Source: Solibacteraceae bacterium (lineage in GTDB: Bacteria; Acidobacteriota; Terriglobia; Bryobacterales; Bryobacteraceae). Taken from it: a DNA stretch of 64,000 bases. A model generated the notes under the pieces. The model saw nothing but the letters and a program-made list of their open reading frames with translations, did no database searches and was not told the DNA's origin. The position numbers were made by a program, and so were the translations under genes. Below, in pieces: positions 20,608 to 49,426 of the stretch (position 1 is its first letter; each line of letters opens with the position of its first letter). The stretch is taken from positions 372,001 to 436,000 of the forward strand of contig JALSRK010000024.1 in the NCBI GenBank assembly GCA_026984795.1, read 5' to 3'.

Positions 20608-20695
20608 GGGCCGGGTTCAGGCCGCTGGCGAGACAGCCGTCCCCGGCTGCGGCCACATCGAGCGCCTTGGCAGCGACGACGGGCGGCGGCGCGAG

Positions 20696-21085
20696 AGCCT
20701 ATTCTTCCTCGCGCGTGGCCACCTCCACCTGGCCGGCCTCCTTGGCCTTGGCCTTCCGCGCCTCCCAGAGATGCCGGTTGCGGTTCGTCTTCCAGTACTT
20801 GTTGCCCCACCAGGCGTCGTTGTCCTCGGCGAAGGCGCCGGCCATCACCGGATTGGAGCGGTTTTTCTGCACCCAGGCCGCCAGCACCGGATCGGCGCTC
20901 TTGCGGAGCTGCTTCGAGACGGTGAAGGTGAGCCGATCCGAGTGCCTGGCTCCGGGCCGCCGGAAGTAGACGGTGAGGTAGCGCTCCTTGTGGAACGCCA
21001 TCGGCAGCAGCGTCCGGCCGACTTTGGCCGCGGCGGCGCTGAGGTGCTCGCCGACGCCATCGAGCTCCTTGGCCCACTTGTAGCT
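20696..21085. repeat. Direct repeat, left copy (pair with 32790-33179)
   Basis: A 390-nt block nearly identical to 32790-33179 (offset 12,094 nt), with five substitutions counted by eye (about 98.7% identity) and no indels. Both copies are in the same orientation. Similarity drops abruptly at the right end of the block although the gene homology continues. Confidence 0.9.
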
Positions 21086-21181
21086 GGTGATCTGATCGGC
21101 GGCGACGCGGAAGCTCTGGTCGCCGAACTCGAAAGCGAGTCCCGTGGAATCGTTCAGCTTCAACAAGCCGTCGGTGCTCAC
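20699..21181 (-). pseudogene. 5'-truncated copy of the exported protein gene at 32793-33404
   Basis: The C-terminal 125 residues are almost identical to the intact copy (QITSYKWA..., RNRHLWEARKAK..., ATREEE). The region before that is homologous but diverged (DGLLKLNDSTGLAFEFGDQ against DGHLTLNESNGLVFQYGDQ). Homology ends near 21185, corresponding to about residue 44 of the intact protein, so the signal peptide is missing. The first usable start in frame would be GTG 21181; the longer frame begins only with TTG at 21283 in sequence that does not match. The protein would stay in the cytoplasm, so it is probably non-functional. It marks the left edge of the 12-kb cassette. Confidence 0.7.
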
Positions 21182-21325: not shown

Positions 21326-23485
21326 CTATTCGCCGGCCGCGCCTCGAGCGGTGTCGTTCAACCCGAGCCTAATCGTGGTTATCGAATGGGGAGGGAGCCG
21401 ATAGCTGAAGTTGGAAGACAGCCCGCGAATCCGGTCACGCCGGATAGAAACCGTAATCCTGTCGAAATCGTTGACCGAGTCCACCGATTCGGCAGCAATC
21501 TGCCACAACTCGCCTTGAGGTCTCACACCCGCGCCACGAATGTCAAAATCGGTCTCCATCGGCTGGTCTGGGTGCAGGTTGATGAGGTGGAGAAAGATCG
21601 ATCGCGCGTTCTCTGAACGCGTGGCGACCGCGTCCAAATAAGAAATGCCGGACCAACCGAACTCCGGGACAGTGAAAGTAGGCGCACTGGAGCGGCTCAT
21701 GAGAAGGGTTGTGCCTGAGTGGTTGCTGTAAAGTTGCATCGCCAAACCGGGCGGGGTGAGAAAGGCCCGAGTGCTGTCAGTTCTTATCGCACCTAAACTG
21801 TTGATGAGGTGCGTTCGGATTCCGATGGGGACCCGGTCGCAGAGCCGCATGAGGACGTGCAAGACCCGGGCGGTGAAGATCGCTGCCCGGAGCGTCTGAT
21901 TGAACTCAAGCCCAGAGCGATTCAAGAGGTCGATGAACTGATTGACGGCGGAGCGTCCGGGTGATTCGCTCGGCCGCCGGTACGACCAAGACCACGTATT
22001 CCACTCGTCGAGGGCGATGTCGATCCGGTTGGGGCCAGCAGCAATCCCATCGATCTGGGAGAGGACGCGGCGCAAGTTCTGTTCCAGGATCGACGGTTCC
22101 GCCACGACCGCTCTGTAGAACGCCACCGATCCTTCGGTGAAAGGTGGCGGGGTGAAGCCCACTGGGAAGTAGTGGTGCAAGGAAAGGAAATCGATTTGGC
22201 TCCACCCGCGGCGGAGCACCACCGCGTTCCAGGCATCAGCATTGTGGTCGGGCTGCCGGCCCGGCTGAGGTATGAACAGCGACCTGCCTCCCACAGCGGT
22301 GATCGTGATCTTCGGGTCGGCCCTCCTCATCGCCTTGGCGATGGGGACCATATAGGTCGCGTAGCCGCGCGCATTCGTGTGGCCGCTCTGGAAGGGTTCG
22401 CCCCAAACCTCATTACCGATCGACCACTGCCTCACCTTGTACGGTTTCCGCCTCCCGTTCGCCGCCCGCTTCGCACCCCAGACTGACTCCGAAGTCCCGT
22501 TGCAGTACTCTACCCAGGCAGCCGCCATGTCGGGCGTGCCGGATCCGAAGTTAACAGTGATATAAGGCTGCGCCCGCAGTCGCTCACAAAACTGTAGAAA
22601 CTCATCGGTGCCGAAGTCGCCGTCGTCCATCCCGTTGTTGTACCCGTAAGGCTGGCCGAAGGGAAGGATATCCTGCTGGGGGCGTAGATCGCGCGGCCCG
22701 ATGGCTTTCCTCCAATCGTAGCAGTCGGCATAGCCGCCACCCGGCCACCGCAATACCGTCGGCCGGACTTTCCGGACCAGCTCTAAAACGTCTTGTCTCA
22801 GACCGTCAACGTTGTCAGCCGGCATGAGCGAAGCCGCACCAATCCACTTTGTTCCGGGACGGTTGAAGGCGATCCGGAATACTGCGGGCCTCAGGGCTCG
22901 ATTCGGCGTCAGCCAGACCTGATACTTCTTCCAGTCACCCGGCTGCAGCCGCAATTCCGCATGCGCTGCCACCGTCCCGTCAGCGGCTTCGAGACGGAAC
23001 GAAACCGGCTGATTCGCTGGGGTCGCCTTGATCCACGCGTAGGCGACATAGGGTTTTCCGGCGAGAATGTCAAAGCCCGTTTGACGGATGCCGCGCCATT
23101 CCGTGGAAGTTCCGAACAAGGAGACTCGCTGTGAGGCGCGCCCTACCATTGCGCTCGATTGATCGATGACGTAACTGACGTGGGTCCGGTCGGGGTCCGG
23201 CTCCCAAGGAACAGCTACTTGGGTGCGGTCCGGATCAATAGGAAAGAATTTCCGATTGCGCAGCAGCTCCGCCCATAGACCGCTCTGAATGACCCGGTCA
23301 AAGTGCTCCAAGTGGTGGCCGTAGATGCGCTGATCCACCTCATGAATAGTGTTGTGGACGTCGACCCGGAAGCTGGCGTGAATCTGAGCCGGCGCCGGTC
23401 GCAGAGAGAGAATCACGCTCAAACCGAGAAGAAGAAGGCACGGATGGCTGGAGCACGTACCGCAGGTTGATGGAGGCAGCAGCAT
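21326..23485 (-). CDS. Exported GH51 alpha-L-arabinofuranosidase
   Basis: A 719-residue protein with a signal peptide (residues about 16-34). It has the GH51 plan: N-terminal jelly roll with FGHHLEH-like motif (RIYGHHLEHF), then a TIM barrel containing LRWPGGGYADCYDWRKAIGP, YGYNNGMDDGDFGTDEFL, the acid/base motif WSIGNEVWGE (Glu359) and the likely nucleophile in IALDEWNTW (Glu494), followed by a C-terminal beta domain. GH51 enzymes release terminal arabinofuranose from arabinan, arabinoxylan or arabinogalactan. The ATG at 23485 overlaps the stop of the dehydratase gene in TGATG, so the two are translationally coupled. Its codon use is visibly richer in A/T than neighbouring core genes. Confidence 0.9.
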   Translation of the reverse strand: MLLPPSTCGTCSSHPCLLLLGLSVILSLRPAPAQIHASFRVDVHNTIHEVDQRIYGHHLEHFDRVIQSGLWAELLRNRKFFPIDPDRTQVAVPWEPDPDRTHVSYVIDQSSAMVGRASQRVSLFGTSTEWRGIRQTGFDILAGKPYVAYAWIKATPANQPVSFRLEAADGTVAAHAELRLQPGDWKKYQVWLTPNRALRPAVFRIAFNRPGTKWIGAASLMPADNVDGLRQDVLELVRKVRPTVLRWPGGGYADCYDWRKAIGPRDLRPQQDILPFGQPYGYNNGMDDGDFGTDEFLQFCERLRAQPYITVNFGSGTPDMAAAWVEYCNGTSESVWGAKRAANGRRKPYKVRQWSIGNEVWGEPFQSGHTNARGYATYMVPIAKAMRRADPKITITAVGGRSLFIPQPGRQPDHNADAWNAVVLRRGWSQIDFLSLHHYFPVGFTPPPFTEGSVAFYRAVVAEPSILEQNLRRVLSQIDGIAAGPNRIDIALDEWNTWSWSYRRPSESPGRSAVNQFIDLLNRSGLEFNQTLRAAIFTARVLHVLMRLCDRVPIGIRTHLINSLGAIRTDSTRAFLTPPGLAMQLYSNHSGTTLLMSRSSAPTFTVPEFGWSGISYLDAVATRSENARSIFLHLINLHPDQPMETDFDIRGAGVRPQGELWQIAAESVDSVNDFDRITVSIRRDRIRGLSSNFSYRLPPHSITTIRLGLNDTARGAAGE

Positions 23486-24660
23486 CAGATCACGTTTTCC
23501 GACTCTTCTTTTCCGAAGACCAAACCCTCCTGGGTAGAACCGATGAAGCTGTACTCTTGAATCAGTTCCTCAGTGAGCCGCACGCCCAGTCCGGGCGAAG
23601 TCGGCGGCGCGACGCAGCCGTCCTGAATCTCTAAGGGTTCCACCAAGAAACGGTCACGTAACGGATTCGGATACTGGCAGCACTCCAGCCACAGACAGTT
23701 CGGATGTGCGAACGCGAAGTGCAGATTCGCCATCAAGGCCGGCGCCCCCGCCCAAGAGTGCATCGCGATCTTCACACCCCGGTCCTCAGCGAGAGCCGCC
23801 AGGCGTTTCGTCAAGGTGAAACCGCCCGCGACGGAAAGATCAGGCTGAAAAATGTCGAGGGCATCCGCCGAGAGATACGCCTTGAGCTCCGCCACGCTGG
23901 TCAAACTTTCGCCGCCAGCGATCGGGTAGGAGACCATTCGGCGAAGTTCTGCGTACGCGGCTGGATCCTCGATTCGGAACGGTTCTTCCAGCCAGCAGGG
24001 ACCGCACTCTTCGATCGCCATCGCCAGCTCGATGACCTGGGCTTTCGACCAAGGCGAAGGTGAGCTGCCCTGGACCGCGTCCACCATCAGTTCAAACCGG
24101 TTACCGACCGCTTCCCGGAGCTTCTTCATGCTGCGAGCGGCGTTCGCAGGATCGAGAACCCGCCATTTGTAGGCGGTGAAGTTCTGCGAGATGGCGTGGC
24201 GAACTTCCACCACGAATTCCTCTGGAGACTCACAGCACCCAGCGCTGTAATAGACTCGGAGCCTTTGCTGGCGAGCTCCGCCGAGTAGTTCATAAACCGG
24301 AACTCCGAGAGCTTTTCCGGCCAAGTCGTGCAGCGCGATGTCGATAGCGCCGAGAACCCCAATCGGATAGCCGTGCCGGTTCCAGAACACCGAATGGTCG
24401 TAGAGCTTTTGCCACAGGCGCTCCGGTTGCAACGGGTCTTCCCCGACCAGCCAGCGCCTGAAGAAATCCACAAAGGGAGCGACGGCGGCCCGCACGCAGG
24501 CGCCTTGATACACCTCGCCCACCCCGGTCGTGCCGTCGTCCGCAACCACCTGGACGAACACCGAGCTCCACGAGTCGAAATACCCGCCGCTCCAACGCCA
24601 TCTCCTGCCGTCGGGGTTCCTGCAAGCCAACTGGATTGTTCTTAAGTCAGCGATTCTCAT
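23485..24660 (-). CDS. Enolase-superfamily sugar-acid dehydratase (mandelate racemase group)
   Basis: A 391-residue protein of normal family length. The N-terminal capping domain runs to about residue 120. The barrel shows a K-x-R motif (Lys165-Trp-Arg167), metal ligands Asp194 (LMVDAV), Glu225 (WLEEP) and Glu251 (GGES), and the Asp274/His301 pair (FQPDLS, MHSWAG) typical of the mandelate racemase subgroup. That group contains galactonate, arabinonate, rhamnonate and fuconate dehydratases, which give 2-keto-3-deoxy acids. In context between glycosidases and upstream of an aldolase-bearing operon, dehydration of an aldonate is likely. It uses AGA and TTA codons that are rare elsewhere in the window. 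Confidence 0.88.
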   Translation of the reverse strand: MRIADLRTIQLACRNPDGRRWRWSGGYFDSWSSVFVQVVADDGTTGVGEVYQGACVRAAVAPFVDFFRRWLVGEDPLQPERLWQKLYDHSVFWNRHGYPIGVLGAIDIALHDLAGKALGVPVYELLGGARQQRLRVYYSAGCCESPEEFVVEVRHAISQNFTAYKWRVLDPANAARSMKKLREAVGNRFELMVDAVQGSSPSPWSKAQVIELAMAIEECGPCWLEEPFRIEDPAAYAELRRMVSYPIAGGESLTSVAELKAYLSADALDIFQPDLSVAGGFTLTKRLAALAEDRGVKIAMHSWAGAPALMANLHFAFAHPNCLWLECCQYPNPLRDRFLVEPLEIQDGCVAPPTSPGLGVRLTEELIQEYSFIGSTQEGLVFGKEESENVI

Positions 24661-25111: not shown

Positions 25112-26269
25112 TCACTCGCGTCCGTGCCCTACGTTAAGGGACCTGCTGCCCGGCCCGCTTCCCCTGGAGCTTCGCGCACGGAACTCACGAGCCTCTTCGA
25201 CCCACGCCGTCCACCCGGGTTTGGGGGAACCGTCCTCATACCGCAACCCGAGGGAGGTGAGGAACCTCATGAATGACTCGTTGTTGAGAAGCTCCGGACT
25301 GAGCAAGGGCTCAAGGGCGGTTTTCGTCCGTTCGTAATTCCAGTCCTGATACCCCTCCCAAATCACTCCGATGATTCGGCTGCGATGATTGTCGAGCCAC
25401 CGGAAAAAGCGGCGGATGAACTCGGCTTGAATCTCCGGCGAGGAGTTCACCTCCGGAGCCGACGCACAGCCCAGTTCGGTGATCAGGACTTTCTTGCGGC
25501 CGGCGGTTTCCAGAACGTGCGCGAGGGCGGCGGCGAAGTAGGCGGGACTATTGCTGTCCAACGGCGTTTCCCGACCCCTGCCGAACATGCTGACCGGAGC
25601 GTAGTACGTGACACCGAGATAATCCAGCTGGGGTTCAAGCTGGGACCACCAGGGCTCGAGCGAATTCCAGCGGAGCACCGTGCCGAGCCGAACGTGGGGC
25701 GCTGCTTGGCGGACGACCTTCGAAGCACGGGCGACGAACTTGACGTAACCGGGGAACTGCGCCTTGTGTTCCGAGAAGTACCAGTCCACTTCGTTGCCGA
25801 TAGACAGATAGTCGATGTAGCTGCCGAATCTGTCGAGGAACCCCTTCAGGAACAGTTCCCAGCGTTCCAGTACATAAGGATCATCAAACGGCCGCCCCCG
25901 GAGATACTCGGGCATCTGCAGCTCTTCCATGTGAACGTTGGCGATCGTGAAGGCGATCTTGAATCCATGGTGCTTGACGTAGCGCAGATGCCGGGCTACG
26001 CCGGAGATATGATCGACGTTGTTGTCCCAGTTGTAGCGGCCCGGCTCGGGTTCGTCCCAGCGACCGAGAACGATGGCGAGTGTGACGCCGGCCTCCCGCG
26101 CCCGCTCGAGCGCCGCGCTCCCCTTGTTGTCCGTGAAGAGGCCCTGAATGCCTAGGGGCTGGCCGGCGGCCGGAGAGCCATTCGCGGCCATGGTCGCCAG
26201 AAGCGTCAAGATTCCTACTCCGTGGCTCACTGCTCTTGACCTTGTCACGATTGTGGTTCTCGAAATCAC
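25112..26269 (-). CDS. Exported clan GH-A glycoside hydrolase
   Basis: A 385-residue protein. GTG 26269 is chosen because GGAGGAGGG lies just upstream; an earlier GTG (26299) would place that site inside the gene. A signal segment spans about residues 12-36. The TIM barrel shows DEPEPGRYNWDNNVDHISG after strand 2, SIGNEVDWYFSEHK after strand 4 (Asn-Glu, the clan GH-A acid/base) and KVLITELGCAS after strand 7 (nucleophile Glu). This is the GH5/GH39/GH53 arrangement; the exact family cannot be told by eye, and arabinogalactan endo-galactanase-type activity would fit the arabinofuranosidase downstream. It follows the Oar receptor gene by 94 nt. Confidence 0.8.
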   Translation of the reverse strand: MISRTTIVTRSRAVSHGVGILTLLATMAANGSPAAGQPLGIQGLFTDNKGSAALERAREAGVTLAIVLGRWDEPEPGRYNWDNNVDHISGVARHLRYVKHHGFKIAFTIANVHMEELQMPEYLRGRPFDDPYVLERWELFLKGFLDRFGSYIDYLSIGNEVDWYFSEHKAQFPGYVKFVARASKVVRQAAPHVRLGTVLRWNSLEPWWSQLEPQLDYLGVTYYAPVSMFGRGRETPLDSNSPAYFAAALAHVLETAGRKKVLITELGCASAPEVNSSPEIQAEFIRRFFRWLDNHRSRIIGVIWEGYQDWNYERTKTALEPLLSPELLNNESFMRFLTSLGLRYEDGSPKPGWTAWVEEAREFRARSSRGSGPGSRSLNVGHGRE

Positions 26270-26363
26270 GGCCCTCCTCCATTTGGCCCGCTCGGTCACC
26301 CGCTGGCGTTATGGATCCGGCAAGCCCCTGAGTTCAGAGAGTTCAGAGGGACCACGCCCATGG

Positions 26364-29300
26364 CTAGAAACGCAGCTTCAGCGCTAACTGGCCGATCCTC
26401 GCGTCGTGGGCGCGAGTGATGACCCCGCCCGCCTCCCACGTGGCGTTGCTCTGGTCCGGGTACAGAAAGTTAGGCCGGTTGAGCAGGTTGAAGAACTCGG
26501 CCCGGAACTGAAGATTCACCCTCTCAGTGAACTTGAACATTTTGAACAGCGAAAAGTCCAACGTTTGAAAGTTCGGGCCCGGAATGATGTTCCTTCCAGC
26601 ATTGCCGTACCGCCCGGCCGTTTCGGCACTCGATGACGGCGGATCCTTGAACGCGCTCTTGTCGAACCAGCCGTGAATGCTTCGTTCGTCCGCCGGGAGA
26701 CGGCCGTCGGCGATCCGATCGGCCCGCGCATCATTGACGGTGCAGCCGCAATTGTAGCCGGAACCCGCGAACACCGAGAACGGAAGCCCGCTTTGTAACG
26801 TCAGGATTCCGTTGATTCGCCACTGGCCGAGCACGGCGTTCATTACAGGACGCCAGTGATTCCCCACCGCTTTGCCTCGGCCGAACGGCAGATCGTAGTT
26901 GAAGGCGAACACGAAACGATGAGCCCGATCAAATGAGGAGCGCGCCCGGTCCGACCGCCTGTCGAAGGGATTGTGCCCCCGTCCGCTGGGGTTCGAATCT
27001 CCGCCTCCGGTGATTGTGCCGCCGCTCGCGTCGTCGATCGACTTGCCGAAGGTGTACGCCGCCAGGAATTGGAGGCCCGCCGACATCCGCTTTTCGAGCT
27101 TCACCTGCAGGGAATGGTAGATCGAAGAAAACGCGTTGGCCAGGGCTTCCACGTCTCCGACGTTGGGAACCGTCGCGTGGTGGATGCGGCGTTGCTCCGC
27201 CGTGGCCGGATCTCCTGGGGGTGTGGGATTGGCACTGAACGCGCCCGGTAGTTTGGTCCCCTTGGTTCCTACGTAGCCGATGTCGAAAACCATCTGGCCG
27301 GGCAGCGCTCGCTGGATGTTGAAGCTGAAGTACTGCGTGTAAGGCGAGCGGCTGTTAGGCTCGAACATCCGGTAGCTCCCCGAGGGGTTCTCCTTATCGA
27401 AATCCTCTACGGATGGGGCAAGATGCACCGGCAGGCCGTCGCTGAAGCGGTACATCGCCTCCACAGTGGTGAAATCCAGGTTGAACAGATTGAACTTCCG
27501 GGTGAACGGGGGGTTCAATCCGGCCTGCCGGACCTGCTCGAACGGGTTGAAGTAGGAGATTCCGTAACCACCGCGAATCGCCGTCTTGTCATTGACGGCG
27601 AACGCGAAGCCGAACCGGGGCGCCCAGTTGTTCTTGTCGGTCCTGACGAAGTTCCTGGAAGTATCGACCCCGGCGAACAGAACCCTGCCCCCAATGAGAT
27701 CGATGTTGGAAAGGCGATCAGCGACCTCTACGTGGCCCGGGTATAGGTCGTAGCGAAGCCCGATGTTCAGCGTGAGCCGCCGAGTTACATTGATCTTGTC
27801 CTGTGCGTAGAATCCATACTCGGTCATCCGGAGTCCCCGCGTCCCCACCGTCAAATCCTGCTGAATGACCGTCGCCCGGCCCGTGAGAAAGTCGGCAAAC
27901 GAGAGCCCGGTGAACAGCGGGACCATGATGTAAGCGCCTTTTCCGAAGAAGTTCTCATTGCCGTTGATGTGTCGGCGGCGAAAGTCGAAGCCGAACTTGA
28001 GGGTATGGCGTCCCTTGGTGCGTGAGAGGTTCTCGGACAGCTGGTAAGCGGTGGCAGCAGTCCGGTTTGGGGTGAACGGAGATGTGCCGATCCAGCTCGG
28101 TCCGGAACTAAAGAAGAACCACGGCAGCCCCACCGTGAGCTCGTCGATATTCACGTTCGGGATTCCGACCTGATCAGCCAAGTTCTGGCCGCCATCGGAC
28201 GTGCCCAGCAGAAACGAGTTTCGGTTCAAGCCGATGCGAAGTTCGTTCACCGTGTGTGGATTGAATGTGTGGACATGTGTGATCCCTCCGTTTTGGGCTC
28301 GGCTGTCTCCTGTACCGGCCAGCAGGTCCAGGACGACTCCGCAATCGATACACGGGCCCACTGTTCCACCCCCGAACGCGGCCGGCGTGTCGCTGCTGCC
28401 CTGAACAAAGCTGTAGTGGGCCGTTAGCGAGTCCCGGGTCGATATCTGATAATCAATCTTCACGTCGAACTGATCACTGTTGACGGAACGCGTCCCGCTC
28501 GTCGAGTAGTTGTTGATCGTCCCGCGGCCGGGAATCAACGTGCCAGGCTGGTTGGGCAGAGGGTACATCTGTGCGATCTTGGCGGCAGCAGGGTCGATGG
28601 CCGACGGGGGGATCCTTTGTCCTTCAAAGATCGTCCCCAGCAGCGCGTTCTCAAAGAGCGGCTGACCAGGCGGCAACGTCTCGCTGAAGTCGCCTTGGCG
28701 CTCCAACTCGGTGGGAACCGATTGAATCGTCGTGCCCCCCAGGCGGTCCCTGGTGCCTTGATAATCGATGAAAAAGAACGCGGTGTTGCGTACGACCGGA
28801 CCGCCGAGCGTGCCACCGAACTGATTGCGGCGCAACGGCTGCCGCGGAGCCTTGGCCTGCCCGGGCGCAAGGGCGACCTGGTTGTCAAAGAAGCCGTTCG
28901 CGTCCAGTATCTCGTTCCTCAGGAACCAAAACCCCGAACCATGCACCTCGTTGGTCCCGGACTTCAACTGCACGGCGACGATCCCACCAGCCGTGCGGCC
29001 GTACTCGGCTGAGAAGGTCGAGGTTTGAACTGCGAACTCCTCAATGGCGTCGATTGGCGGACGGACGTTCAGGTTGCCTACGTGATCGAGGTTGTCCACT
29101 CCGTTGATCACGAACATGTTGTTGTCAGACCGGGAGCCGTTGATGTTGTAGCCGGAGTTCGACTGATTCTGCATGCCGTCGTTCACTCCGGCGACGAGTC
29201 GGATGAGGTCAGCGAAATCACGGCCGTTCAAAGGCAGGTCGGCCACCTGCTGATGGTTGATGACCTGACCGATTTCGGCGGTTTCCAACCGCAACGCTTG

Positions 29301-29687
29301 CGACGCGTCGGCATGAACTTCGATTTGCTGCTCCACGGTGCCCACTTGCAGCACCGCGTCCACGCGCATGACTTGGTTCACCGTTAGCGTGAGCCCGGTC
29401 TGCACCCATCTCCTGAAGCCGGGTGCCGAGACTTCGACAGTATACGGACCGACGGGCAAGAACTCGACAACGTAGATACCCTCTTGGTTCGTTTCCGCCG
29501 TCTTCGTAATCCCCTGGCGGACCTGGGTGACTTTGATAGTCGCCCCGGGAATGACCGACTTCTGTTCGTCGTAAACCGTGCCAGTGATCTGCCCGGAGCC
29601 CACCTGGGCGGCGGCAGGGTTCGGCGATATCAAAGCGCAGACACCCCAAACAACCAAAGACGTTCCAACGACATGTAGCCCTGACAT
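26364..29687 (-). CDS. Oar-like TonB-dependent outer-membrane receptor
   Basis: A 1107-residue protein. ATG 29687 follows AGGAGG at 4-nt spacing and starts a signal peptide (about 1-30, ending AAAQ). A carboxypeptidase-regulatory-like domain (VGSGQITGTVYDEQKSVIPG to about 115) precedes a plug (LPLNGRDFADLIRLVAGVND, NINGSRSDNNMFVINGVDN, STFSAEYGRTAGGIVAVQLK) and a long beta-barrel ending in LALKLRF with a terminal Phe. This is the Oar architecture expanded in Acidobacteria and myxobacteria, used for large oligosaccharides or peptides. It heads an operon with two glycosidases and a dehydratase, so glycan uptake is the likely role. Expression is probably controlled by the adjacent GntR protein. 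Confidence 0.92.
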   Translation of the reverse strand: MSGLHVVGTSLVVWGVCALISPNPAAAQVGSGQITGTVYDEQKSVIPGATIKVTQVRQGITKTAETNQEGIYVVEFLPVGPYTVEVSAPGFRRWVQTGLTLTVNQVMRVDAVLQVGTVEQQIEVHADASQALRLETAEIGQVINHQQVADLPLNGRDFADLIRLVAGVNDGMQNQSNSGYNINGSRSDNNMFVINGVDNLDHVGNLNVRPPIDAIEEFAVQTSTFSAEYGRTAGGIVAVQLKSGTNEVHGSGFWFLRNEILDANGFFDNQVALAPGQAKAPRQPLRRNQFGGTLGGPVVRNTAFFFIDYQGTRDRLGGTTIQSVPTELERQGDFSETLPPGQPLFENALLGTIFEGQRIPPSAIDPAAAKIAQMYPLPNQPGTLIPGRGTINNYSTSGTRSVNSDQFDVKIDYQISTRDSLTAHYSFVQGSSDTPAAFGGGTVGPCIDCGVVLDLLAGTGDSRAQNGGITHVHTFNPHTVNELRIGLNRNSFLLGTSDGGQNLADQVGIPNVNIDELTVGLPWFFFSSGPSWIGTSPFTPNRTAATAYQLSENLSRTKGRHTLKFGFDFRRRHINGNENFFGKGAYIMVPLFTGLSFADFLTGRATVIQQDLTVGTRGLRMTEYGFYAQDKINVTRRLTLNIGLRYDLYPGHVEVADRLSNIDLIGGRVLFAGVDTSRNFVRTDKNNWAPRFGFAFAVNDKTAIRGGYGISYFNPFEQVRQAGLNPPFTRKFNLFNLDFTTVEAMYRFSDGLPVHLAPSVEDFDKENPSGSYRMFEPNSRSPYTQYFSFNIQRALPGQMVFDIGYVGTKGTKLPGAFSANPTPPGDPATAEQRRIHHATVPNVGDVEALANAFSSIYHSLQVKLEKRMSAGLQFLAAYTFGKSIDDASGGTITGGGDSNPSGRGHNPFDRRSDRARSSFDRAHRFVFAFNYDLPFGRGKAVGNHWRPVMNAVLGQWRINGILTLQSGLPFSVFAGSGYNCGCTVNDARADRIADGRLPADERSIHGWFDKSAFKDPPSSSAETAGRYGNAGRNIIPGPNFQTLDFSLFKMFKFTERVNLQFRAEFFNLLNRPNFLYPDQSNATWEAGGVITRAHDARIGQLALKLRF

Positions 29688-29829
29688 GCCACCTCCTGGA
29701 TTCCTTGATAGCGCTGTTGAAGCTCGCACCAAGTGCCCCGCGAGCGTTTTCCGCAACGGGATCAGCCAGTGCCTGCACCGGCCGGCTGCGACCGCCCAGT
29801 CGAACCAGGATCGACGGGTTCCGGGAAAC

Positions 29830-29842
29830 ATGGTACGACCAT
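29830..29842. promoter_or_regulatory. Putative GntR/FCD operator at the Oar promoter
   Basis: ATGGT-ACG-ACCAT is a perfect palindrome with a 3-nt centre, matching the TGGT-N3-ACCA consensus of FCD-type GntR regulators such as LldR. It lies at the predicted start point of the divergent oar transcript, where binding would block initiation. A second site of the same form occurs at 30895-30905. Confidence 0.6.
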
Positions 29843-29846
29843 ATTC

Positions 29847-29875
29847 AGTCTGGCACTGAATCGGAACGCTGTCAA
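29847..29875 (-). promoter_or_regulatory. Promoter of the Oar/glycosidase operon
   Basis: On the minus strand a perfect TTGACA (29875-29870) is followed after 17 nt by CAGACT (29852-29847). The start would be near 29840, inside the palindrome, with a leader of about 150 nt to ATG 29687. The -10 is weak (3 of 6), as expected for a regulated promoter. Confidence 0.5.
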
Positions 29876-30022
29876 GGTTTTTCCGCTCCCCGTCTTCAGC
29901 GAATGGCGGGCTTCCTTGGATCGAGAGATTCAGCGGCGGCCTGTCGGCCCAAGCAGTTGTTCGGAAGAACTCCCGTAGTATCAACAGATCGAACGCCGAC
30001 GCCAAGGGCTTCGGGTTGAGTT

Positions 30023-30051
30023 TTGACTTCGTGGCATTCCCGGGTTAGTAT
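30023..30051 (+). promoter_or_regulatory. Promoter of the GntR regulator gene
   Basis: TTGACT (30023-30028), a 17-nt spacer and TAGTAT (30046-30051). The predicted start near 30058 gives an 87-nt leader to ATG 30145, or a leaderless GTG at 30058. The 457-nt divergent region 29688-30144 therefore holds two promoters and one operator. Confidence 0.55.
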
Positions 30052-30144
30052 GGTTGTGTGTCAAGGATAAGCCGGCGGGCGAACGACATGGTCCATCCAA
30101 GGCGCGAGACGCGGACCCCAGAGGGCGCGGAGGGGAAACGTCCA

Positions 30145-30879
30145 ATGGAAGCTCAGAGGGAGGACATCACCGCGTGGCTCGTCAGCTGCTTCAAACGGCT
30201 GCTCGCCGACGGTGCCCTGGCCCCTGGGTCAAGGTTGCCCCCGGAACGGGAGTTGGCGAAGATGTTTGGCGTCAGCCGATCCTCGCTCCGCCAAGCGCTA
30301 AAGGTGCTCGAAATCATGGGGGTTGTCACCCAACAAGTAAGCCGCGGTACCTACCTCAGCGACAACGCGTCAGCGATCCTCGCCGAGCCCATTGATTTTC
30401 TGGTTTTGCTGGATGGCATCTCCCACCATGAGTTGTTCGAAGCGCGCATGATGCTAGAGCCGGAGCTCGCCGCTCGGGCGGCGGAGCGAGCTACGACCGA
30501 CGACCTGCGGGCGTTGCGAGGAGCTCTGACCCAAATGAGGCGCGCGTTGTCGGACCAGATGAGATACATCGAGGGGGACGTTGCCTTCCACGATGCTGTT
30601 TTTGCAGCGGCGGGCAATCGCGTTTGCCAAGCGATGATGCGCGTCGTTCAGCGAGCTGTTCTGACCAGCATCGCCCGCACCTCGGGGTTGACTGAGCTCG
30701 AGCGTTCGTTCGCGTTTCACAAAGCAATCTACGTGGCTATCGAAAAGCGGCGACCGGACGAGGCCCGGCAGGAGATGATTCAACACTTGAAATTCGGCCG
30801 GGACAGGCTGTTGCTCGCTACCCAGAAGCCTGCAGTGGGCTTGGCAGAAAAGATCGCGGCCATGCGGGCGGCGTTATAG
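30145..30879 (+). CDS. GntR-family (FCD subgroup) transcriptional regulator
   Basis: A 244-residue protein. ATG 30145 is favoured over upstream GTG/ATG codons because GGAGGGG lies 9 nt before it and the product then begins right at the winged helix. Residues about 5-75 form the GntR wHTH (GSRLPPERELAKMFGVSRSS, LRQALKVLEIMGVV, RGTYLSD). Residues about 90-225 form the all-helical FCD ligand domain with a metal-type pattern including FHDAVFAAAGN and FHKAIY. Such regulators bind sugar acids, lactate or related carboxylates and release TGGT-N3-ACCA operators. Two such sites flank it, one at the oar promoter and one before the dehydrogenase gene, implying autogenous control of the whole cassette. 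Confidence 0.92.
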   Translation: MEAQREDITAWLVSCFKRLLADGALAPGSRLPPERELAKMFGVSRSSLRQALKVLEIMGVVTQQVSRGTYLSDNASAILAEPIDFLVLLDGISHHELFEARMMLEPELAARAAERATTDDLRALRGALTQMRRALSDQMRYIEGDVAFHDAVFAAAGNRVCQAMMRVVQRAVLTSIARTSGLTELERSFAFHKAIYVAIEKRRPDEARQEMIQHLKFGRDRLLLATQKPAVGLAEKIAAMRAAL

Positions 30880-30894
30880 GCGGAGGATGTCCAG

Positions 30895-30905
30895 TGGTCG
30901 GACCA
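30895..30905. promoter_or_regulatory. Putative GntR/FCD operator before the dehydrogenase gene
   Basis: TGGT-CGG-ACCA, a perfect copy of the TGGT-N3-ACCA form at 29830, lies in the 34-nt gap between the regulator's stop (30879) and the dehydrogenase ATG (30914). A TTATAG hexamer ends at about 30879. Binding here could block an internal promoter or transcription through the gap. Confidence 0.5.
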
Positions 30906-30913
30906 ACTCCGTT

Positions 30914-31972
30914 ATGAAAGCAATCGTTTACTACGGCCGACAAGACGTCCGATACGAGGAGTTCCCTGATCCGGAGGTGCCCAGGCCTCGCGAAGTAGTC
31001 CTCAAGGTGAGGTCCGCCGGTCTCTGTCACACCGACGTCAACGAGTATCTACATGGCCCCGTGTTCATCGCCCAAACCCCACACCCACGCACTGGGCGTT
31101 CGATTCCCCTGGTGATCGGCCACGAGTTTTCGGGTCAGGTCGTCGAGATCGGGTCTGACGTTCGAGGGACGAAGGTAGGGGATCGGGTGGCGGTGAACTC
31201 GGTGGACTCCTGCGGGAAGTGCTTCTACTGCATTCGGGGCCGCCGGGCACTCTGCCGGGATGCGGCCTACGTCGGCTTCTCCCGCGACGGGGGCTTTGCT
31301 GAGTACGCGGCGGTTCCGGAGGAATGCTGCCACCCACTGCCACCGAGCGTTTCCGACGAGGCTGGAGCGCTCGCGGAACCTTTCGCCGTCGCGCTGCACG
31401 GACTCTCGCAATCCGGGCTGCGAGTGGGCGACCGTGCCGTGGTCGTCGGTGCAGGTACCATCGGCATGTGCATGTTGCAGATCCTGCGAGTGGGTGGAGC
31501 CGAACACGTGTTCGTCGTTGAGAAATCGGAAGCCAAGAGAGAAATCGCAGAGCAACTCGGGGCCAGCGCAGTTATCAGCCCGGACCGGACGGACCCCGCT
31601 AAGGTGGTTCGTGATCTGACCGACGGCCTGGGGGCGGACATCGCTTTTGAGTGTGTGGGGTCGGCAGATAGCCTACGAACGGCTATCGAATGTGCGCGTG
31701 GGGATGGAACCGTGTGCGTTTTGGGCGTCTTCCCTGGACCGCTCGAGTTCAATTGGAATGACGTGCTGGCGCGGGAACAAAAGGTTCTGACCTCACTGGC
31801 GTACGCCGATGAGTTCCCGGTTGTCATCTCCATGTTGGCCGATGCGAGGCTGAAAGCTGAACCGTTGATTACGGGCTATCTGCCTCTTAGCCAACTGGTG
31901 GAGCTGGGGCTCAAGCGGTATGGAGCGGCGGGAGCCACAAACATCAAGACAGTGGTTCGGGTATGGGCATGA
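30914..31972 (+). CDS. Zinc-dependent medium-chain dehydrogenase (sugar/polyol type)
   Basis: A 352-residue protein of the MDR superfamily. Catalytic zinc ligands are Cys38 (AGLCHTD) and His70-Glu71 (IGHEFSG); the structural zinc site is the four-Cys lobe at 100, 103, 106 and 114 (SCGKCFYC...ALC). The Rossmann motif GAGTIGMCML lies near 180. The pattern resembles sorbitol, threonine and sugar dehydrogenases, NAD(P)-dependent oxidation of a secondary alcohol or an aldose. ATG 30914 starts the conserved MKAIVYYG; the ATG at 30887 abuts its own ribosome site and is rejected. It lies between the GntR gene and the RraA-type aldolase and likely provides the first or an intermediate oxidation in the cassette. 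Confidence 0.87.
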   Translation: MKAIVYYGRQDVRYEEFPDPEVPRPREVVLKVRSAGLCHTDVNEYLHGPVFIAQTPHPRTGRSIPLVIGHEFSGQVVEIGSDVRGTKVGDRVAVNSVDSCGKCFYCIRGRRALCRDAAYVGFSRDGGFAEYAAVPEECCHPLPPSVSDEAGALAEPFAVALHGLSQSGLRVGDRAVVVGAGTIGMCMLQILRVGGAEHVFVVEKSEAKREIAEQLGASAVISPDRTDPAKVVRDLTDGLGADIAFECVGSADSLRTAIECARGDGTVCVLGVFPGPLEFNWNDVLAREQKVLTSLAYADEFPVVISMLADARLKAEPLITGYLPLSQLVELGLKRYGAAGATNIKTVVRVWA

Positions 31973-32030: not shown

Positions 32031-32696
32031 ATGAACAGGCAAGAGAGCACGAACCTCGTCGCCAGGCTTAGCGCTATTCCCTATGCCGGTGCAATCAGTG
32101 ACATCTTGGACGAGATGGGGTTTAGGAACCAAGTGCTGCCTCCGGAGATCCGACCCCTTCGGCCGGACCAGACCCTGGCCGGCCGGGCTTTTACGCTGCT
32201 CGGGACGGTGACTGACGAGCATGACCGGGACAAGATCCTTCTGCCCTACTTGAAAATGCTTGGAGACATCCGTCCGGGTGACGTGCTGGTGTGCCAGTCC
32301 AATGACACCACCGCGGCTCATCTCGGTGAGTTGTCGAGTGAAACCGCCCAGTACCGTGGCGCTCGGGGCGCAGTGATCGACGGCGGTACAAGGGATGCCG
32401 GGTACATTTTGCGAATCGGTTTCCCGGTCTTCGCTCGTTACACGACACCAAGAGACATCGTGGGACGCTGGCGGCTCGCGGACTACGCCGTACCCATTGA
32501 GATCGGCACCGTACGGATTGCACCCGGCGACTACGTCGTCGGGGACCGTGACGGCGTGGTGATCATCCCTGGGGACACCGCCGAAGAGGTCGTTATCAAG
32601 GCGGACCAGATTGTCCGCACTGAGAACTTGGTTCGTAAAGCGATTCTGGCAGGCGTGCACCCGCTGGAGGCGTACCGGAAATACGGTAAGTTCTGA
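32031..32696 (+). CDS. RraA-family protein, probable class II pyruvate aldolase
   Basis: A 221-residue protein matching the RraA/HMG-aldolase fold: AISDILDEMGFRNQVLPPEI at the N-terminus, GRAFTLLGT, GDVLVCQSND, HLGELSSETAQYRGARGAVIDGGTRD and GDYVVGDRDGVVIIP. Gly-Glu at 99-100 and the Arg121-Asp122 pair are the residues that hold metal and substrate in active aldolases, whereas RNase E-inhibiting RraA proteins do not require them. Active members split 4-hydroxy-2-oxo acids to pyruvate. Following a dehydrogenase and linked to a dehydratase, cleavage of a 2-keto-3-deoxy sugar acid is inferred. ATG 32031 has GAGG about 9 nt upstream. It ends the + operon. Confidence 0.85.
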   Translation: MNRQESTNLVARLSAIPYAGAISDILDEMGFRNQVLPPEIRPLRPDQTLAGRAFTLLGTVTDEHDRDKILLPYLKMLGDIRPGDVLVCQSNDTTAAHLGELSSETAQYRGARGAVIDGGTRDAGYILRIGFPVFARYTTPRDIVGRWRLADYAVPIEIGTVRIAPGDYVVGDRDGVVIIPGDTAEEVVIKADQIVRTENLVRKAILAGVHPLEAYRKYGKF

Positions 32697-32789
32697 GGGT
32701 TGAAGTAGTCTGCTAGTTGGCCCCACTTTCTATGCGGGCTGTCCGGGCCCGTGGGCAGGGCTCCGCAAGCTCTCCGAGGCTCCACAGAA

Positions 32790-33179
32790 AGCCTATTCTT
32801 CCTCGCGCGTGGCCACCTCCACCTGGCCGGCCTCCTTGGCCTTGGCCTTCCGCGCCTCCCAGAGATGCCGGTTGCGGTTCGTCTTCCAGTACTTGTTGCC
32901 CCACCAGGCGTCGTCGTCCTCGGCGAAGGCGCCGGCCATCACCGGATTGGAGCGGTTTTTCTGCACCCAGGCCGCCAGCACCGGATCGGCGCTCTTGCGG
33001 AGCTGCTTCGAGACGGTGAAGGTGAGCCGATCCGAGTGCCTCGCTCCGGGCCGCCGGAAGTAGACGGTGAGGTAGCGCTCTTTGTGGAACGCCATCGGCA
33101 GCAGCGTCCGGCCGACTTTGGCCGCGGCGGCGCTGAGGTGCTCGCCGACGCCCTCGAGCTCCTGGGCCCACTTGTAGCT
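32790..33179. repeat. Direct repeat, right copy (pair with 20696-21085)
   Basis: Right member of the 390-nt direct repeat bracketing the carbohydrate cassette; see 20696-21085. Recombination between the copies would excise 12,094 nt as a circle and leave one gene copy. Confidence 0.9.
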
Positions 33180-33404
33180 CGTAATCTGCTCGGCGGGAAC
33201 CTGGTAATTCTGATCGCCATACTGAAATACGAGCCCGTTGGACTCGTTCAGCGTCAGGTGTCCGTCGGTCCCCCACGGGATCTCCTGGACGGTCCCCTCC
33301 AGATACATGACCGCCTCCGGGCTCTCCTGAGCCAGACCGGAGCCGGCCAACAGCAACGCGGCGGCGGCCGCCGCGATGAGACGAATCGCCGTGTTTCGAT
33401 TCAT
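32793..33404 (-). CDS. Exported protein of unknown function (intact copy)
   Basis: A 203-residue protein. ATG 33404 has AGGAG about 12 nt upstream and starts a signal peptide (residues 1-25, AAAAALLLAGSGLAQ). The mature protein has strands MYLEGTVQEIPW and GHLTLNESNGLVFQYGDQ, a helical segment EQITSYKWAQELEGVGEHLS and a C-terminal Trp/Lys-rich part (WWGNKYWKTNRNRHLWEARK). The layout suggests a small beta domain with a basic helical tail. No known family. A truncated, near-identical copy lies 12 kb to the left, so this gene evidently served as a recombination partner. Confidence 0.75.
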   Translation of the reverse strand: MNRNTAIRLIAAAAAALLLAGSGLAQESPEAVMYLEGTVQEIPWGTDGHLTLNESNGLVFQYGDQNYQVPAEQITSYKWAQELEGVGEHLSAAAAKVGRTLLPMAFHKERYLTVYFRRPGARHSDRLTFTVSKQLRKSADPVLAAWVQKNRSNPVMAGAFAEDDDAWWGNKYWKTNRNRHLWEARKAKAKEAGQVEVATREEE

Positions 33405-34220: not shown

Positions 34221-35783
34221 TCAGGGCTTGAAGCGGTCCTCGGCCCGCAGCCCGGCCCACGCCCGCCAGAGCCGAGCGAGCGCATCCACCACCTGAGGGT
34301 GCTCCTCGGCGACGTTGTGGAGCTCCGTGCCGTCGCGTTCGATGTCGTAGAGTTCCCAGGGGCCGTCGTCGATGGCCACCAGCTTCCACTGGTCCCGCCG
34401 CACCGCCCGCCCGTGGTTCCACTTCCAGAAGAGGGCGTCGTGGCCGCGGCGGCGCTCCCCGCGCAGCACCGGCACGAGCGACTTGCCGTCCAGGCGCAGG
34501 ACGCGGCGGCCCTCGAAGCGGCTGGGGTGGCGCACGCCGGCCACTTCGAGCAGCGTGGGAGCGATGTCGATGACGTGCGAAACCTCGCGCGTCAGGCCGC
34601 CCGGCTGGCCGATCTTGCCCGGCCACCAGGCGATCAGGGGAACGTGGATGCCGCCCTCGTGATCGTACTGCTTGAACCAGCGGAACGGCGTGTTGCCGGC
34701 GTTGGCCCAGCCATGGCCGTAGCTCTGGAACGTATCCTCGGGGCCGGGCATGATCTCCGGCAGGTTGCCGGGGCGCACGGGGCGGCCGTCGCGGGTCGTC
34801 TCGGGCAGGTAGGGGCCCTTGCGGTCCGGGCGGTACTCGACGTGACAGGCCCCGTTGTCGGTGAGGAACAGGACGAGGGTGTTCTCGAGGCGGCCGGAGG
34901 TCTCGAGAGCTTCCAGGATGCGGCCGATGCCGGCGTCCATGCGGGTGATCTGCGCCGCGTAGACCTCCATGCGCCGCTGCTGCCACTCCTTGTTCTTCAC
35001 GCGATCCCACGGGGGCACGTCCGGGTGCCGCGGCGAGAGCTCCCAGGCCGGGTCGATGACGCCCAGTTCCTTCATGCGCTCGTAGCGGGCCTGGCGGAGC
35101 TTGTCCCAGCCCTCGGCGTAGCGGCCCTGGTGCTTTGCGATCTCCTCCTCGGGCGCGTGCAGGGGCCAGTGGGCGGCGGTGTAGGCCACGTAAAGGAACA
35201 GGGGCTTGTTCTCCGGAGCCTGGCGGACGAAGCCCACCGCGGCGTCGGAGATGGCGTCGGTGTAGTAGAAATAGGGCCGCTGGTAGTCGGCCGAGGCGTC
35301 CTCGTTGTCCCGCATGAGGGTGGCTGGCGCGAAGTAGCTGGCGGCCCCGAGAATTGTGCCGTAGAAATGCTGAAAGCCGCGCTGCAGCGGCAGGCCGTCG
35401 AAATTGTCGGGCTTCGAAAGGTGCCACTTGCCGGCCATGTAGGTCGAGTAGCCGGATTGCCGCAGCAACTCGGCGACGGTGATGGCCTCCCGGCGCAGAG
35501 TGCGGTTCTCGTCGAGCGCCAAGTGATGGTAGACGCCGGTGAGCAGCGACGCCCGCGTGGGCACGCACATGTTCGCCACGTGGAACCGCGTGAAGCGGAG
35601 GCCCTCGCGGGCCAGGCGCTCGAGGTTCGGCGTCTCGATCTCGGAACCGTAAGGCGAGAGGTCGGCGTAGCCGATGTCGTCGCCGACGATGAGGACGAAG
35701 TTGGTGCGGTGGTCGGGCTGTTCCGGGGGGCCTCCGCAGGAGAGGCAGGCGAGAGCGGCGAGGACAGCGAAGATTCCCTTCAT
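34221..35783 (-). CDS. Type I sulfatase (arylsulfatase A-like)
   Basis: A 520-residue alkaline-phosphatase-fold sulfatase. The N-terminus is a signal sequence with a possible lipobox (CLSC, Cys16). Metal ligands begin at LIVGDDIGYADLSPYG; the formylglycine motif is CVPTRASLLTG with Cys73 to be converted, followed by AGKWHLS and FLTDNGACH. The sequence VIDIAPTLLEVAGV and the C-terminal WKLVAIDDGPWELYDIERD are standard for the family. It hydrolyses a sulfate ester, probably from a sulfated glycan or aryl sulfate, outside the cytoplasm. There is an insert of about 60 residues around 215-270 compared with the other two sulfatases in the window. It stands alone on its strand. Confidence 0.92.
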   Translation of the reverse strand: MKGIFAVLAALACLSCGGPPEQPDHRTNFVLIVGDDIGYADLSPYGSEIETPNLERLAREGLRFTRFHVANMCVPTRASLLTGVYHHLALDENRTLRREAITVAELLRQSGYSTYMAGKWHLSKPDNFDGLPLQRGFQHFYGTILGAASYFAPATLMRDNEDASADYQRPYFYYTDAISDAAVGFVRQAPENKPLFLYVAYTAAHWPLHAPEEEIAKHQGRYAEGWDKLRQARYERMKELGVIDPAWELSPRHPDVPPWDRVKNKEWQQRRMEVYAAQITRMDAGIGRILEALETSGRLENTLVLFLTDNGACHVEYRPDRKGPYLPETTRDGRPVRPGNLPEIMPGPEDTFQSYGHGWANAGNTPFRWFKQYDHEGGIHVPLIAWWPGKIGQPGGLTREVSHVIDIAPTLLEVAGVRHPSRFEGRRVLRLDGKSLVPVLRGERRRGHDALFWKWNHGRAVRRDQWKLVAIDDGPWELYDIERDGTELHNVAEEHPQVVDALARLWRAWAGLRAEDRFKP

Positions 35784-46674: not shown

Positions 46675-48072
46675 CTACTTGCCCGGGCGCTTGCCTCGAC
46701 GATCTCTCACGACCTCCGCGCGATGCTCCTCCATCTCGGCGAGCATCCGCCGAACCACATCCGGGTGCTCGGCGGCGACGTTGAACCGTTCGCCCGGATC
46801 GGTCTCCACGTTGAACAGCAGCGGTGGATCCTGGACCGTCGTCTTGCGAGTACCGTTGGCCGGGAAATTGGTAATGACGTGGAGCTTCCAGGGCCCGCGG
46901 CGGTAAGCTCGCAGCTCGTGGCGGACCCAGAGGAAGATACGCGGCTCGCGGCCCGGGGCGTTCTCGAAGAGAACGTCGGAGACGTCGGCGCCGTCGTAGA
47001 CGCGGTCGTTCGGCAGCTCGACCCCCGCCAGGGCGGCGAAGGTGGGCAGCAGGTCCATCATGGTGACGAAGGCCCGGCTCTTGACGCCGGCGGGGATGTG
47101 GCCGGGCCAGCGGGCGATGCAGGGCATCCGGACGCCGCCTTCCCAGGTGCTGCCTTTTCCCTCGCGGAAGGGTCCCGGCGAGCCGCCGTTCTCCTTCTTG
47201 GCCAGCCACGGGCCGTTGTCGCTGGTAAAGACGACCAGCGTCTCCTCGTCGATGCCCAGGCGCCGGATCTCGGCCAGCACCTCGCCGACGCTCCAGTCCA
47301 GCTCCTCGACCACGTCCCCGTACAAGCCCCGGGGGCTGCGGCCGCGGAACCGCTCGCCGGGATGCAGCGGCGGGTGTGGCTCGATGTGAGCCAGATACAG
47401 GAAGAACGGCTGTTTGCGCTCCTCCACGGCGAAGCGCATGAACCGGAGGGCGCGCTCGGTGAAACGCCGGGTCAGTTGGCTCTGATCGGGTTCCTGCTCG
47501 ATCACGTAAATGCCCTCCATCAGCGGCAGCGGAGGTACCACGCGGAGCCGGTAGATCGGGTGCTTTGGATTATTCTTGCGGCTCATGTCGTTCGAATACG
47601 GCAGGCCGAAGAAGCGGTGGAATCCTTGGTTGAGCGGCAGGTAGCGGCGCTTGCGCCCCAAGTGCCACTTGCCGATGCACGACGTGATGTAACCGGCCTG
47701 CTGCAGCGCTTCCCCCAAGGTCAGCTCCGATGGGGGCAGGCCCCGGTTGGTGACCGGCGGCAGGACGGCGTTCATGCCGAAGCGCACCGGCAGGCGGCCG
47801 GTCATCAACGCCGCGCGGCTGGGGCTGCACAGCGAGGAGGCCGAGTAGAACTGCATCAACTGCATCCCCTCACGGGCCATCCGGTCGAGGTTCGGCGTGC
47901 GGATCGTCGGATGGCCGTAGACGCCCAGGTCCCCGTACCCGAGATCGTCGGCGAGGATCAGAACGATGTTGGGGCGAGTCCCGGCGTACCGGGCGGCAGT
48001 GACGGCGGGCGCCGCCGCGAGCAGGATCAGCAGCGGGCAAAGCAACCGGAAGATCGAAGCTTGACTACGCAC
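46675..48072 (-). CDS. Type I sulfatase, tandem copy 2
   Basis: A 465-residue sulfatase. GTG 48072 is taken as the start because it lies 1 nt beyond the TAG of the upstream sulfatase and begins a signal peptide (residues about 7-28, ending VTAA). Key motifs: NIVLILADDLGYGDLGVYGH (metal), CSPSRAALMTG (Cys82, formylglycine site), IGKWHLGRKRRYLP and FTSDNGPWLAKKENGG. It closely parallels the neighbour in FGLPYSNDM, RGRSPRGLYGD and WSVGEVL. Tandem duplication with tight spacing indicates one transcription unit. Substrate is unknown; the pair may act on different sulfate positions of one glycan. Confidence 0.92.
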   Translation of the reverse strand: MRSQASIFRLLCPLLILLAAAPAVTAARYAGTRPNIVLILADDLGYGDLGVYGHPTIRTPNLDRMAREGMQLMQFYSASSLCSPSRAALMTGRLPVRFGMNAVLPPVTNRGLPPSELTLGEALQQAGYITSCIGKWHLGRKRRYLPLNQGFHRFFGLPYSNDMSRKNNPKHPIYRLRVVPPLPLMEGIYVIEQEPDQSQLTRRFTERALRFMRFAVEERKQPFFLYLAHIEPHPPLHPGERFRGRSPRGLYGDVVEELDWSVGEVLAEIRRLGIDEETLVVFTSDNGPWLAKKENGGSPGPFREGKGSTWEGGVRMPCIARWPGHIPAGVKSRAFVTMMDLLPTFAALAGVELPNDRVYDGADVSDVLFENAPGREPRIFLWVRHELRAYRRGPWKLHVITNFPANGTRKTTVQDPPLLFNVETDPGERFNVAAEHPDVVRRMLAEMEEHRAEVVRDRRGKRPGK

Positions 48073-48073
48073 C

Positions 48074-49426
48074 CTAGGTCTGCGGTTCCCCTGGCTTGGT
48101 TTCTTCGACGTGCTTCCTGATAAGCGCCAGCAGCTCCTCGACCACGGCCGGGTGCTCGGCGGCGACATCGTAATGCTCGCCGGGATCGTGGAGCAGGTGA
48201 TACAGCAGCGGCGGGTCGTGCCCCACTGCTTCCGGCTTCCCCGAGGCCGGCTCGCGGGTCTTTACGTGGATCTTCCAAGGCCCTTTGCGAACGGCCCACA
48301 CCTCGGCGCCTTCGTAGTAGAAGAAGAGCGGCTCCCGCCCCGGGTCGTTCTTCAGCAACACGGCCGAGAGATCCGCGCCGTCCAGGACGAGATCTTCCGG
48401 CGGCTTCACCCCGGCCAGCGCCGCCAGCGTCGGCAGAATGTCCATCGTCGTGCCGAAGGCCTGGGTCGTGACGGCCGCCGGGACATGGCCGGGCCAGCGG
48501 GCCAGGAACGGCTCCCGGTGGCCGCCTTCCCAGGTGGTGGCCTTCCCCTCGCGCAAGAGGCCCGCCGAACCGCCGTCGAGCTTCTTGGTCAGCCACGGAC
48601 CATTGTCGGAGGAGAACATCACGAGCGTATCGCCGTCCACGCCCAGCTCCTTCAGCATGCGCAAGATCTCTCCGACGCTCCAGTCGATCTCCTCCACCGC
48701 GTCGCCGTACCGGCCCCGGAGGCTCCGGCCGCGGAACCGCTCACTGGCAAACAGGGGCACGTGCGGCATCGTGTAGGGGAGGTACAAGAAGAACGGCCGC
48801 TTGCGGCCGACGGCGTCGCGGATGAAGGCGATGGCTTCCTCGGTATAGCGCCGAGTGAGATAACGCTGGTCCGGCTCCTGCTCAATGACCCGCTCACCGC
48901 GCATCAAAGGCAGTGGAGGGGGGTGGTAACGGGCGGCCCGGGGGTTGTGGGCCGTAGTCATGTCGTTCGAATAGGGAAGTCCGAAGTAACGGTCGAAGCC
49001 GTGGCGCGTGGGCAGGTACTGCGGCCGGTGGCCCAGGTGCCACTTGCCGATGCACGCCGTCGTGTATCCGGCCTTCTTGAGCAGCTCGGCGATAGTGACT
49101 TCGCTGTCGGGAATGCCGCCCGTCGAGTAAGGGAACAGCACCCGCGTCAAGCCCGAACGGATCGGCAGCCGCCCGGTGAGCAGAGCGGCCCGGCTGGGCG
49201 TGCAGACGTTGGCGGCCGAATAGAACTGGGTGAAGCGCATGCCCTCGGCCGCCATGCGGTCGAGATTCGGCGTGCGGATCGTGGGATGGCCGTAGCACGC
49301 CAGATCGCCGTAGCCAAGGTCGTCGGCGAAGAAAAAGACGAAATTCGGTTTGGACTGGGCGGCGGCCGCCACGGCTGCGAGAACGACAACCCAGGCCAGC
49401 CCGGCGAAGCGAAAGCGAGACGGCAT
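48074..49426 (-). CDS. Type I sulfatase, tandem copy 1
   Basis: A 450-residue sulfatase with a signal peptide (residues 1-23, ending AAAAQ). Motifs: NFVFFFADDLGYGDLACYGH, the formylglycine site CTPSRAALLTG (Cys75), IGKWHLGHRPQYLP, FSSDNGPWLTKK and YHLLHDPGEHYDVAAEHP. The overall plan equals that of the downstream copy, roughly half of positions agreeing by eye. It is the first gene of the two-gene unit. A Tat-exported oxidoreductase gene ends 87 nt upstream on the same strand and may belong to the same operon. Confidence 0.93.
   Translation of the reverse strand: MPSRFRFAGLAWVVVLAAVAAAAQSKPNFVFFFADDLGYGDLACYGHPTIRTPNLDRMAAEGMRFTQFYSAANVCTPSRAALLTGRLPIRSGLTRVLFPYSTGGIPDSEVTIAELLKKAGYTTACIGKWHLGHRPQYLPTRHGFDRYFGLPYSNDMTTAHNPRAARYHPPPLPLMRGERVIEQEPDQRYLTRRYTEEAIAFIRDAVGRKRPFFLYLPYTMPHVPLFASERFRGRSLRGRYGDAVEEIDWSVGEILRMLKELGVDGDTLVMFSSDNGPWLTKKLDGGSAGLLREGKATTWEGGHREPFLARWPGHVPAAVTTQAFGTTMDILPTLAALAGVKPPEDLVLDGADLSAVLLKNDPGREPLFFYYEGAEVWAVRKGPWKIHVKTREPASGKPEAVGHDPPLLYHLLHDPGEHYDVAAEHPAVVEELLALIRKHVEETKPGEPQT

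Follow-up and report, generated by a model that had tools for sequence, protein, structure and literature searches.

Two putative operators of a FadR-subfamily regulator in a putative sugar-acid and arabinoside utilisation cassette of a Solibacteraceae bacterium

Introduction

Regulators of the FadR subfamily carry an N-terminal GntR-type winged helix-turn-helix (HTH) and a C-terminal FCD domain. LldR, a member of this subfamily, has TKGT/ACMA sites with a 3-nt spacing (PMC4494728), and the box of E. coli PdhR is AATTGGTnnnACCAATT, with the core GGTnnnACC (PMC7660256, in its accessible part). In the FadR-subfamily TF-gene divergons of Suvorova et al. 2015 (PMC4494728), the site separates the gene of the regulator from a structural operon that runs the other way. 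According to the accessible sections of that paper, which draw on other phyla, Arg at position 28 of the regulator prefers a G/C pair in the operator, and a Gly in the wing likewise favours a G/C pair. Its text makes no mention of Acidobacteria or TonB, and the accessible sections of PMC4850484 mention GntR regulators near CAZyme genes only in general terms. For this bacterial group, the literature searched contained no report on an operator code of Oar-importer regulators. Here, we describe a regulator gene and two operator-like palindromes in a 64-kb stretch of genomic DNA from a Solibacteraceae bacterium (the window).

Results

The regulator, its cassette and two palindromes

The genes and sites of the cassette are as follows.

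21326..23485, minus strand: alpha-L-arabinofuranosidase-like enzyme (Pfam Alpha-L-AF_C, 3.2e-17)
23485..24660, minus strand: MR/MLE-superfamily sugar-acid dehydratase (galactonate/arabinonate-dehydratase-like; no equivalog cut-off exceeded)
25112..26299, minus strand: secreted-looking protein following oar (neither Pfam nor PDB gave a match)
26364..29687, minus strand: Oar-like TonB-dependent outer-membrane receptor (Pfam OMP_b-brl_4, CarboxypepD_reg, Plug)
29831..29841, no strand: putative operator site 1, TGGTACGACCA (13-bp form ATGGTACGACCAT), in the divergent oar/gntR gap
30023..30051, plus strand: promoter-like TTGACT-17-TAGTAT ahead of gntR (from a consensus scan only), 182 nt from site 1
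30145..30879, plus strand: FCD/GntR regulator of the FadR subfamily (Pfam FCD, GntR); GTG 30058 is a possible start of the frame
30895..30905, no strand: putative operator site 2, TGGTCGGACCA, within the dehydrogenase leader
30914..31972, plus strand: zinc-type alcohol/polyol dehydrogenase, first gene after gntR (Pfam ADH_N, ADH_zinc_N)
32031..32696, plus strand: RraA-like aldolase (Pfam RraA-like, 8.6e-35)

The assignment of the 30145-30879 product to the FCD type, made in the initial annotation, was upheld by Pfam. Both the N-terminal GntR HTH (PF00392, 3.5e-16) and the C-terminal FCD domain (PF07729, 2.4e-27) scored above cut-off, and a palindrome of the form TKGT-N3-ACMA lies near the gene, as in other members of the FadR subfamily. 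The product stayed below the equivalog cut-offs of LldR (NCBIfam NF007741; 100.3 bits vs 311) and PdhR (NCBIfam NF007001; 100.6 bits vs 330). Its best PDB match bears the name PdhR, and it also matched the FCD regulator chain 2di3, which we take to be C. glutamicum LldR. The same genome encodes two further FCD proteins, on contigs C16 and C73.

Both palindromes proved to be present at the positions given, and they are the only TGGTNNNACCA words in the 64 kb, where 0.39 would be expected; at least two such words occurred in 4 of 100 shuffled windows. The view that TGGT-N3-ACCA is a consensus of FCD-type regulators agrees with the accessible parts of PMC4494728, PMC7660256 and PMC2230225. Site 1 had been said to overlap the predicted oar start point, whereas the oar ATG with a good Shine-Dalgarno sequence is at 29687, 144 nt away, and an overlap with the promoter rests on the relatives described below. 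Site 2 lies in the 34-nt gap before the dehydrogenase if translation starts at ATG 30914, but within the reading frame if it starts at the in-frame ATG 30887. The start at 30914 is favoured because homologues align from its first residue.

Across the 5.23-Mb genome, TGGT-N3-ACCA occurs 28 times, i.e., once per 187 kb, which is rarer than the one chance match per 65 kb initially estimated. The word is not enriched genome-wide, because the same pattern read backwards as a control was found 47 times. However, 24 of the 26 sites elsewhere lie inside mechanically called open reading frames with a length of 80 codons or more, and one more (L094) lies inside a 452-codon frame. With 25 of 26 thus in open frames, the window locus holds two of the three non-coding sites of the genome; a check for many equally good intergenic matches found at most one other (L001, the sole other site outside a sizeable frame). 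At the genome rate, chance would place ~0.0002 sites (2e-4) in the 34-nt gap and 0.0026 in the two gaps combined.

Conservation of site 1 in relatives

Homologues of the regulator were sought in 200 same-family genomes and 257 genomes of the order. Regulators 41-63% identical to that of the window grouped with it in one clade (support 99/94 in a 28-row set and 95/91 in a 29-row set). Besides the window's own, this clade comprises 37 loci: 28 from a first set with wider flanks and nine from previously unused genomes. Dropped from the count were L054 and L055 (contig end) and L078 (partial gene).

Of the 17 loci in which oar is divergent, 14 had the strict word in the oar/gntR gap, as opposed to 1 of the 17 loci without such an oar (Fisher p 1e-5, a value that overstates independence because the loci are related). 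In 2000 simulations, the mean count was 0.12 and the maximum was 2. The first set contributed 11 of 14 loci with and 1 of 11 without divergent oar, and the fresh loci, which had no part in forming the hypothesis, 3 of 3 and 0 of 6. These later loci are only partly independent, because L183-L185 are closely related to L057/L060, and a genus label (g42) is shared by L186-L191 and L073-L076. All three exceptions with divergent oar hold forms with one mismatch: TGGTACTGCCA in L058, TGGTACGTCCA and TGGTACATCCA in L070, and TGCTTCAACCA and TGGCTCAACCA in L071. Upstream of the L070 regulator, TGGTACGTCCA and TGGTACATCCA stand in tandem, 15 nt apart, each within ATTGGTAC-TCCAAT. In L072, counted as lacking divergent oar, a pair of head-to-head oar genes at a distance of 3.5 kb has the word in between, and in L055 a strict site is found close to the start of an oar gene that lies 8 kb from the regulator.

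The strict word was seen at 3 of 42 FCD loci that belong to this family of genomes but are not orthologous. Two non-orthologous loci, L135 and L148, have sites downstream of the regulator. Against the reading of site 1 as an operator, the nearest relatives of the window regulator (L051, L053, L078) have neither a divergent oar nor the site. Even so, the check on orthologous loci found the counterpart of site 1 kept in most gaps with a divergent oar, and comparison with relatives thus strongly supports a regulatory role for this site.

Promoter layout around the operator

On the oar strand of many relatives, a TTGAC- or TTGCA-like -35 hexamer, read by eye, lies 17-18 nt from a -10 hexamer TACCAT that overlaps the operator. 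This overlap accounts for the first centre base of the operator, which was A in 12 of 13 sequences although it was not used to select them; the flanks of these 13 site-selected sequences averaged 0.28 bit per column. Since the -10 hexamer and the operator overlap in these relatives, the simplest reading is that repression would occur by covering the -10.

The window lacks the arrangement of an operator overlapping the -10 with 17-18 nt to TTGAC that is seen in many, though not all, clade members. Its TTGACA (29870-29875, minus strand) is 34 nt from TACCAT, twice the spacing in relatives, so their promoter layout is not kept here. A consensus scan of 29600-31000 returned no sigma-70-like promoter on the oar strand. 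A composite -35/operator pattern gave six matches in 237 same-family genomes (backwards control, 0), five of which were the source loci of the pattern; it had no match in the window's genome. The sixth match (L157), with no Oar in its vicinity, appears to be fortuitous.

One more element was considered in this gap as the site of a second regulator.

29843..29861, no strand: inverted repeat ATTCAGT-CTGGC-ACTGAAT with perfect 7-bp arms, between site 1 and TTGACA

Its core, TTCAGT-N5-ACTGAA, is unique in the genome, yet 17% of simulated gaps (0.17) yielded such a repeat, so this one may be due to chance and was rejected.

HTH residue and operator spelling

An alignment of 82 FCD loci included 26 in which the regulator is preceded by TGGT-N3-ACCA or TTGT-N3-ACAA. 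The HTH contact residue is Arg in 18 of 18 TGGT loci and Lys in 8 of 8 TTGT loci, the 26 loci falling mainly in three clades. The window regulator has Arg35 here (numbered from the Met at 30145). If position 28 is the Arg of PERELA, as our own numbering alignment suggests, this split matches the Arg28-G rule given in the accessible part of PMC4494728. The wing counts as counter-evidence: the window regulator reads QQVSRGTYL at the position of the G/C-favouring Gly vs mostly QRVGDGTYL in the rest of the clade. In another FCD group (L080, L118, L120, L121, L127, L128, L129, L151), Lys replaces Arg, and TTGTCTGACAA stands upstream (TTGTCAGACAA in L129).

Site 2 and the proposed mode of control

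Taken together, site 1 is almost certainly, and site 2 probably, an operator of the local FadR-subfamily repressor of this putative sugar-acid/arabinoside utilisation cassette. We consider it likely that this repressor acts through site 1 on the oar arm and through site 2 on the dehydrogenase arm. The 30145-30879 product would bind TGGT-N3-ACCA as a dimer, and we infer repression rather than activation. Occupied site 1 would block the oar promoter and thus switch off uptake and hydrolysis (oar, the family-less protein, the MR/MLE dehydratase and the arabinofuranosidase). Occupied site 2 might shut off the dehydrogenase and aldolase genes, acting as a roadblock to transcription that reads through from gntR or masking an internal promoter. 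Release of the repressor would then be brought about by a sugar acid or a metabolite derived from a pentose.

The case for site 2 rests on rarity and position. Dehydrogenase matches at E 1e-60 occurred in 14 of the 200 same-family genomes, the window's own included, the others being 37-42% identical; seven loci in the named genome collection were 28-32% identical. Neither set contained a usable orthologue for comparing the dehydrogenase leader, the closest relative being 42% identical. It is therefore conceivable, if rather unlikely, that only site 1 is an operator, that site 2 is a chance match and that expression of the dehydrogenase and aldolase follows gntR. The gap after gntR is free of the site in 27 of the 28 loci L051-L078 and in L183-L191, and a consensus scan found no promoter-like sequence near site 2. 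Chance must then have put into this gap, where so few are expected, one of the three non-coding sites that the 5.23-Mb genome contains, and the clade does contain one locus with the same arrangement, L077, in which the word stands between the regulator and an MFS transporter gene. The description of the regulator as bracketed by two operators fits the window locus but does not describe the clade.

The presence of two sites at one locus, 1064 bp apart, could also mean that they cooperate through DNA looping across gntR. This is very unlikely, as a single site in the oar gap suffices in relatives and no fixed paired spacing is seen in the clade. Still less credible is that the sites serve one of the two other FCD regulators of the genome: neither the C16 nor the C73 gene has such a site nearby, and the occurrence of the word follows that of the local regulator's orthologues. 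That both sites are accidental, as the lack of genome-wide enrichment and the 4 of 100 shuffled windows would allow, can practically be dismissed in view of all the conservation and residue-operator evidence. Control of both arms by the local repressor thus stands as the preferred reading.

A putative island with exchanged cargo

The cassette (~21.2-32.8 kb) has a GC content of 0.59-0.62 in 1-kb steps vs 0.64-0.70 on either side, and is bounded by direct repeats.

20693..21175, minus strand: left direct repeat, an N-terminally truncated copy of the right-hand gene (93% over 483 nt)
32787..33269, minus strand: right direct repeat, the 3' part of an intact 214-aa open reading frame (33437-32793)

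Its low GC content and the 483-nt direct repeats on either side make the cassette look like an 11.6-kb island acquired as a unit. A truncated left and an intact right copy would result if the unit had integrated through recombination with a partial repeat gene. There is no tRNA in 15000-40000 and no integrase among the listed open frames of the region. Homologues of the repeat gene, only 30-34% identical, were found in 4 of 149 other same-family genomes, and the search for an empty site among them yielded none. Elsewhere in the window, the stretches 46754-47957 and 48141-49332 are arranged in tandem, ~70% identical over 1.2 kb, and also resemble parts of 35510-35708.

The window Oar shares only ~31% identity with the Oars that accompany orthologous regulators and clusters with none of them. 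Other partners of these regulators include GH39 (L062, L066), GH127 beta-L-arabinofuranosidase (L067, L070), sulfatases (L072), GH38 (L055), an FGGY kinase (L071) and MR/MLE enzymes (L058, L070). As far as sequence comparison can tell, the regulator and its predicted operator are kept while the cargo of importer and enzymes changes. Since relatives keep the word before oar though importer and enzymes differ, the switch seems to be of an ordinary type, placed on a gene block that was apparently acquired. From the cargo, we would guess that the ligand is a sugar acid or an arabinose-derived compound.

Discussion

These observations raise the possibility of a portable control handle, in which the FCD repressor and TGGT-N3-ACCA are kept, whereas the Oar and the enzymes (GH39, GH127, sulfatase and GH38; arabinofuranosidase and sugar-acid enzymes in the window) are exchanged. 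The window would then hold one such unit, inserted as the island between direct repeats, and the HTH Arg or Lys would set TGGT or TTGT for each unit. We offer this idea tentatively, judging its chances to fall slightly short of even. More generally, the findings offer an operator code that can be tested for the regulators of Oar-type importers in a group that has been little studied. By way of the repressor, each importer is tied to a class of probable ligands. The findings also suggest a way in which such a cassette can travel together with the switch that controls it.

Compared with the described systems, the window regulator shares the GntR HTH and FCD domains with E. coli PdhR, which, however, serves pyruvate metabolism, whereas the neighbours here are sugar-acid and importer genes. 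With LldR it shares the FadR-subfamily type and the 3-nt-spaced sites, but the window locus has no lactate dehydrogenase or permease. In arrangement, the locus resembles the TF-gene divergons in the accessible part of PMC4494728, in which a site separates the regulator from the structural operon opposite; at the window locus, that place is taken by the gene of an Oar-like receptor, and the regulator gene is followed by a second site.
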